53,229 nt of DNA, taken from contig CACNYO010000005.1 of assembly GCA_902624765.1 (NCBI GenBank), forward strand, positions 1 to 53,229, read 5' to 3'. The stretch's first letter is position 1. Every line of letters starts with the position of its first letter. Made by a program: the position numbers and the translations under genes. Below the pieces are notes generated by a model. That model was not told where the DNA came from, ran no database searches, and was given only the letters and a program-made list of their open reading frames with translations. This document shows positions 14,022 through 14,483 of this stretch, piece after piece. This DNA comes from an uncultured SAR86 cluster bacterium (lineage in GTDB: Bacteria; Pseudomonadota; Gammaproteobacteria; Magnimaribacterales; AG-339-G14).

Positions 14022-14055
14022 AAAGCAGGCGATATTTTCTCGCCTGCTTTTTTTT
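14022..14055 (+). terminator. Intrinsic terminator after amtB
   Basis: AAGCAGGCGA ... TCGCCTGCTT stem followed by T-run. Confidence 0.85.
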
Positions 14056-14072
14056 GATTTTACAAAAAATGT

Positions 14073-14078
14073 TATAAT
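14073..14078 (+). promoter_or_regulatory. Candidate sigma-70 -10 box (TATAAT) for the 14.1-14.4 kb leader/small-ORF unit
   Basis: Exact TATAAT consensus just after the amtB terminator; the -35 (TTTTTG, 17-nt spacing) is weak. Confidence 0.5.
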
Positions 14079-14084
14079 GAGTTC

Positions 14085-14276
14085 ACGTTCATCCTTTAAA
14101 TTTCATAAATTTTTAGGACGGAAGTAGGGAGATAGGAAAACCTCTTTCTTTGTTCTTTAAGAAAGGTTAGCAAGTACCGAAAGGGAACGAGACCGAATAT
14201 CTACCGAAGGAACGCGTTGAGAAGGGTGTATATCAATTGATATACGTACGTTTGAAACGAAAACTGGAGGAATGAT
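14085..14276 (+). ncRNA. Putative structured 5' leader with repeated ACCGAA/GGAACG motifs
   Basis: Hairpin 14139-14168 (AACC.TTTCTT/AAGAAA.GGTT), three ACCGAA copies (14176, 14192, 14203), two followed by GGAACG, 18-bp perfect palindrome 14228-14245, then GGAGG before ATG 14277. Confidence 0.55.
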
Positions 14277-14438
14277 ATGACTATTCAGTACAGAGGTGTC
14301 AAAGTTACTTCAAATAATTCTGGTGAGGCTAAGCCTTTCGCTGGAAATTACAGAGGTACAAAATACACTGAAAAAACTATAGAAAAGTCACCCAAAGCGA
14401 CTAACGGTATTTACCGTGGGTCAAAATGGGTTTCATAA
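14277..14438 (+). CDS. 53-aa protein with three YRGxK[V/Y/W] motifs; DUF4278-like (tentative)
   Basis: MTIQYRGVKVTSNNSGEAKPFAGNYRGTKYTEKTIEKSPKATNGIYRGSKWVS*; upstream GGAGG RBS; own terminator. Not in the supplied ORF track because of its length. Confidence 0.75.
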   Translation: MTIQYRGVKVTSNNSGEAKPFAGNYRGTKYTEKTIEKSPKATNGIYRGSKWVS

Positions 14439-14458
14439 CCTGTCTTTAGGTTGAAAAA

Positions 14459-14483
14459 GGGAGGCGTAAGCCTCCCTTTTTTT
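14459..14483 (+). terminator. Intrinsic terminator of the small YRG ORF
   Basis: GGGAGGC-GTAA-GCCTCCC stem followed by TTTTTTT. Confidence 0.88.

Follow-up and report, generated by a model that had tools for sequence, protein, structure and literature searches.

Cyanobacterial glutamine aptamers mainly precede DUF4278 genes and switch expression ON, and a 2018 review calls glutamine riboswitches restricted to cyanobacteria (PMC6316151). The paper that reported the discovery of the motif gives its distribution as "Cyanobacteria, marine", names PII, GS, GOGAT and Amt genes in association with it, and describes some tandem copies (PMC2864571). The type 2 glutamine riboswitch is found before short ORFs, DUF4278 genes of marine picocyanobacteria (PMC6316151, PMC2864571). 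It should also be noted that phages of SAR11 and OM43 carry glutamine riboswitches (PMC9004378).

Here we analyze the leader of a microprotein gene (YRG) in a 53,229-nt stretch of DNA from an uncultured SAR86 cluster bacterium, referred to as the window. We conclude that this leader is probably a class-I (glnA-type) glutamine riboswitch that controls YRG translation and carries a structured insert in P3. The riboswitch class of the leader is already known (RF01739), whereas the conserved domain nested in P3 is new.

Layout of the locus

All features described below are located on the forward strand. The neighbors of the YRG gene in the window are the genes for P-II (glnK) and an ammonium transporter (amtB), and this upstream unit ends at an intrinsic terminator (14022-14050, terminator scan). 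A -10 box, TATAAT, follows at 14073-14078, and -10-like boxes in relatives have a similar spacing; a scan of the region yielded no full sigma-70 promoter match at the leader. The transcript is expected to start immediately 5' of the aptamer. The 53-aa YRG ORF (14277-14438, ATG at 14277) is a DUF4278 protein (Pfam PF14105, 27.0 bits, cut-off 25.3); downstream of it lies a likely terminator (14454-14481), which was read from the sequence and is absent from the terminator-scan list. Because the leader and the YRG gene lie between the glnK-amtB terminator and this likely terminator, they probably form a one-gene transcription unit of ~400 nt with its own promoter. The positions given in the initial annotation for the -10 box (14073), the arms of a hairpin (14139-14168) and the start codon (14277) agree with our reading of the window.

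The outer aptamer

Comparison of the Rfam library to the whole window (cmscan) returned three tRNAs and a single further match, to RF01739 (glutamine riboswitch, glnA leader), at 14084-14218 with 40.0 bits (cut-off 35, E = 2.7e-5); the matching aptamer is interrupted in P3. In the whole-genome scan the same locus scores 25.6 bits, with a different 3' half, and in such scans the aptamers of many relatives score under the Rfam cut-off for RF01739. No match of the leader to RF01704 (Downstream-peptide RNA) was found in the Rfam search up to E = 10.

The Rfam alignment and the comparison of 39 leaders indicate that the conserved core strands, P1, P2 and P3 are all present. The 5' strand of P1, CGUUC (14086-14090, partner 14210-14214), is invariant across the 39 leaders, as are the core CGGAAGUA and the 5' GG of P3 that follows it (14119-14128), and the 3' CC of P3, the core GAAG and the 3' strand of P1, GAACG, occupy 14204-14214. 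The P2 hairpin (14092-14118) covaries, being 94% paired with its own partner versus 68% with swapped partners, while P1 provides no covariation, because it never varies. Nested leaders of other lineages (L112, L114 and L119) match RF01739 as well, and the genes associated with this family recur, with DUF4278 downstream of the leader and ordinary copies of the aptamer before gltB and a GSII-like synthetase. The initial annotation had proposed a riboswitch among other kinds of cis-regulatory RNA, and the RF01739 match supports that option. From sequence we infer L-glutamine as the ligand.

A nested three-way junction in P3

The inserted domain (14129-14203) forms a three-way junction of stems A, B and C, nested in P3 and described by our covariance model R1. 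It has no counterpart in the Rfam library, which gave chance-level matches only. The initial annotation had named an existing Rfam family as grounds for giving up its proposal; the outer aptamer does belong to such a family, and the 75-nt insert does not. The covariance model that it had proposed to derive from homologous leaders was built for the insert, and stems A, B and P2 all covary. Stem A (5' strand AGAUA at 14130-14134, partner 14198-14202) is fully compensated in three forms, AGAUA/UAUCU, AAGAU/AUCUU and AAAAC/GUUUU, and is 100% paired with its own partner versus 57% with swapped partners in the 39 leaders. Stem-loop B (14144-14165), which is the hairpin of the initial annotation, has covarying pairs at several positions. 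Stem-loop C (14177-14184) consists of CC-GAAA-GG, with invariant CC/GG, and is extended by covarying pairs in longer members (L034, L119 and L112). The junction strand GAACGAGACCGAA is located at 14185-14197, and its part GAACGAGACCGA is identical in 38 of 39 leaders; this part, GAAAACCU and YWAGCWAGUA are the near-invariant junction strands. The diverged members L112-L117 helped to tell the stems from the junction. Because P1 and P2 of members with a short P2 are misplaced in the MAFFT alignment A3, anchored strands served as the basis for counting pairs.

The AGUA/GAA on either side of stem C may form a loop E and is similar to the AGUA/GAA beside P3 of the aptamer. A loop E common to both is only suggestive, because L112 has AUUA in this place. 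Two other foldings were considered and rejected. An alternative P1, in which CGUUC pairs with a GAACG of the insert (RNAalifold), is incompatible with L117, which has GAAAG there, and five diverged members lack the GG/CC that would close the inner junction. Within genus g3, a subgroup (L113-L117) has a diverged insert with the AAAAC/GUUUU version of stem A and a P2 like that of other g3 members; the YRG protein of this subgroup has a longer last spacer.

The initial annotation missed both the P1-P2-P3 aptamer and the nested junction and took structural elements for repeats. The three ACCGAA copies that it listed are indeed at 14176, 14192 and 14203; they are not, however, a single repeat unit. 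The copy at 14203 belongs to P3 and the core of the aptamer, the copy at 14192 to the junction of the insert, and the copy at 14176, which is different in most relatives, to a stem and its GAAA loop.

Distribution of nested leaders and ordinary aptamers

The nested architecture is common to 39 distinct homologous leaders. In the first set of relatives, taken upstream of YRG ORFs, every leader but L058, 29 in all, fits one strict nested pattern. An impression voiced earlier, that CCGAAGGAACG leaders precede YRG ORFs in other bacteria, proved right for related genomes. We searched 204 genomes of the order using R1 (E <= 0.01) and obtained matches in 44 of them; the match in G177 (25.6 bits) is spurious, since it is located inside a coding sequence, and its removal leaves 43 genomes from three families. 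The insert precedes the YRG gene at every locus whose gene context was read, and no second copy in the same genome was found among the genomes searched with R1. Even sampling of the class (369 genomes) and of the phylum (399 genomes) gave no insert outside the order, and RF01739 was likewise confined to the order in two samples, one of 274 and one of 259 genomes; we also looked for phage relatives and found none. Flanking genes vary by genus, and glnK-amtB adjoins the locus in g1 and g4 only, suggesting that the YRG gene travels together with its leader.

The YRG protein is small, lysine-rich and repetitive. Its homologues are 33-52% identical to the copy in the window, a much lower conservation than that of the leader. 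Within the genus of the window, the YRG protein is ~50% identical to other copies (L037, L038, L046, L050, L054 and L055), compared to 90-94% for the neighboring AmtB; judged from these sequences, this divergence may reflect an ORF that evolves rapidly or one that has been replaced, while the leader stayed nearly unchanged. One locus of family f2 (L133, G172:C37) has a DUF4278 match above the cut-off, and the 330 nt that precede it contain no glutamine aptamer.

In the sister genera g14 and g17, the YRG gene is preceded by a tandem of two ordinary glutamine aptamers (L058, L131, L132 and L134), with a similar ACUGGAGG site and without the insert. Since the tandem is located at the same gene, the nested and tandem forms substitute for each other there. 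Another microprotein of the order (MNALNIQKKINT...) also sits behind tandem aptamers.

The genome of the window contains a second, ordinary RF01739 aptamer before gltB (63.2 bits; L001 1501-1560, G000:C8:9225-9284, minus strand). The Shine-Dalgarno sequence of this copy, GGAAGG, can pair with CAUCUUUC directly 3' of P1, which would fit an OFF switch. Copies of RF01739 in relatives precede genes for a GSII-like glutamine synthetase, a ~477-aa protein and a possible TorF-like porin, products that were named from sequence only; this wide set of genes, together with the microprotein behind tandem aptamers, comes from L003-L007, L009-L011, L014, L015, L019-L021, L023 and L024.

Nitrogen sensors of the streamlined host lineage were also surveyed, with E. 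coli as control. GlnE was found in none of 61 genomes (G000-G060). GlnD is missing from each of the 37 genomes of f1, the family of the window, and from 8 of 8 genomes of f4; in f2 and f3, most genomes (15) have it. The absence of GlnD and GlnE suggests that RNA may serve as a principal sensor of glutamine in this lineage.

Proposed expression platform and switch

The aptamer is followed by a linker (14215-14259), which contains a hairpin and possibly a helix X (14215-14222 with 14252-14259). The hairpin corresponds to the palindrome GTATATCAATTGATATAC (14228-14245) noticed in the initial annotation; it covaries, and in relatives it is a hairpin of variable sequence. The element CGTTTGAAACG, reported earlier near the ribosome-binding site, is located at 14249-14259 and is common to the genus only. 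The Shine-Dalgarno sequence CUGGAGG (CTGGAGG in DNA, 14264-14270) was identified from sequence, predicted pairing and accessibility. As no terminator separates the aptamer from the ORF, control is likely to be translational.

The invariant CUGG of the Shine-Dalgarno sequence is complementary to the 3' strand of the aptamer, CCGAAGG. We folded the 39 leaders twice, once freely and once with the aptamer enforced, using nearest-neighbor energies, which take no account of the ligand, the core or loop E. Enforcing the aptamer increased the unpaired probability of CUGGAGG from a mean of 0.45 to one of 0.73. The stretch from the Shine-Dalgarno sequence to AUG opens in 34 of 39 leaders; in the leader of the window itself the unpaired probability of CUGGAGG hardly moves (0.35 free, 0.31 with the aptamer enforced). 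In the spacer part of the candidate anti-Shine-Dalgarno pairing, the 3' strand of stem A would pair with the spacer before the start codon; this looks compensatory by eye in three lineages, and was rejected because random spacers pair equally well. Helix X was rejected as well, the mean energy being -4.1 kcal/mol both for own and for swapped partners.

These data are consistent with the following model. Binding of L-glutamine would close P1 and P3, and the closed aptamer would keep the 3' strand UAUCUACCGAAGG from pairing with CUGGAGG...AUG. The Shine-Dalgarno sequence would thus be freed, and glutamine would turn YRG translation ON. The insert would stiffen P3, thereby shifting the balance of the two folds, or would supply a second input, and the YRG microprotein would probably act as an effector of nitrogen excess. 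The ON direction is suggested by the average gain of accessibility in the folding model and by the cyanobacterial precedent. The expression platform is a putative one, because the spacer pairing and helix X failed their controls.

Possible functions of the insert

Several readings of the insert, and of the leader as a whole, have to be weighed. It is plausible, although we put it somewhat below an even chance, that the insert is a rigid scaffold, with junction and tertiary contacts that only stabilize P3 and tune the glutamine affinity or the folding kinetics. The insert sits exactly in P3 and keeps it closed, helix C with AGUA/GAA next to CC/GG resembles P3 of the aptamer itself, and a scaffold is simpler than a second ligand. 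However, ~30 junction bases that are near-identical over three families exceed the needs of a spacer, other glutamine riboswitches of the same genomes lack the insert, and L112 departs from AGUA. Near-invariant bases at a three-way junction, surrounded by stems that drift with compensation, are the usual appearance of a ligand pocket. This argues for a second aptamer, which might bind another metabolite (e.g., one from the carbon side of nitrogen status), such that the nested RNA reads two signals. The tandem aptamers before the same gene in sister genera and the missing GlnD and GlnE point in the same direction, but no known aptamer matches the insert and, in the genomes searched, it is never found alone or before another gene; we regard a second aptamer as rather unlikely. 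The broader proposal, in which an undescribed second aptamer in P3 makes one interleaved RNA that integrates glutamine with another signal and partly replaces the missing GlnD/GlnE sensors, is speculative, and we consider it quite unlikely.

The constant position of the insert before the YRG gene, wherever the context was read, could alternatively be explained by a protein-binding site, possibly for the lysine-rich, repetitive YRG microprotein itself (autoregulation) or for another RNA-binding protein. This appears improbable, given that the protein has diverged much more than the RNA and that the YRG leaders of g14 and g17 have no insert. Finally, the -10 box and terminator of its own, the ~400-nt unit and the AU-rich hairpins could be those of a thermometer, of an ordinary untranslated region, or of an independent sRNA with the ORF inside it. 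Such an explanation is extremely improbable: the RF01739 match is above the threshold and has its known gene partner, and the constraint is located in the junctions, not in a single melting stem over the Shine-Dalgarno sequence. We found nothing in support of the thermometer or the separate sRNA that the initial annotation had also suggested.

Comparison with known systems

The reading of the leader as a glutamine riboswitch with a nested P3 domain extends glutamine riboswitches to a bacterial order outside cyanobacteria, in which GlnE is missing throughout and GlnD is missing in the family of the window. It also offers a natural example of a structured RNA domain inside the aptamer of another riboswitch, and the insert, being compact and well conserved, lends itself to ligand screening.

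The leader shares with RF01739 the P1-P2-P3 junction, the conserved CGUUCA, CGGAAGUA and GAAGGAACG, the association with a nitrogen gene and the DUF4278 partner. The RF01739 model has 6 nt in P3, whereas the leader has 75 nt there, with a conserved nested junction; the model tolerates these 75 nt as an insertion, which is indicative of variation, not of a defining loss. Unlike the DUF4278 riboswitches of cyanobacteria, the leader comes from a host that is not a cyanobacterium. The type 2 glutamine riboswitch, RF01704, also precedes short ORFs, but the leader does not match it. For the encoded protein, the closest described case is gifB/IF17 of Synechocystis, in which the N-terminal part is DUF4278 and the glutamine riboswitch is turned ON by glutamine (PMC6316151). 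The YRG protein consists of DUF4278-like repeats only, and its likeness to IF17 rests on the DUF4278 similarity; the glutamine synthetase homologue in the family of the window is a ~330-aa, GSII-like protein, unlike the cyanobacterial enzyme that is inhibited by IF proteins. Tandem glnA RNAs resemble the leader in placing two sensing units before one gene, provided that the insert is a sensor. They are, however, two side-by-side copies of one aptamer, whereas in the nested leader the inner unit lies inside the outer one and is of a different kind.
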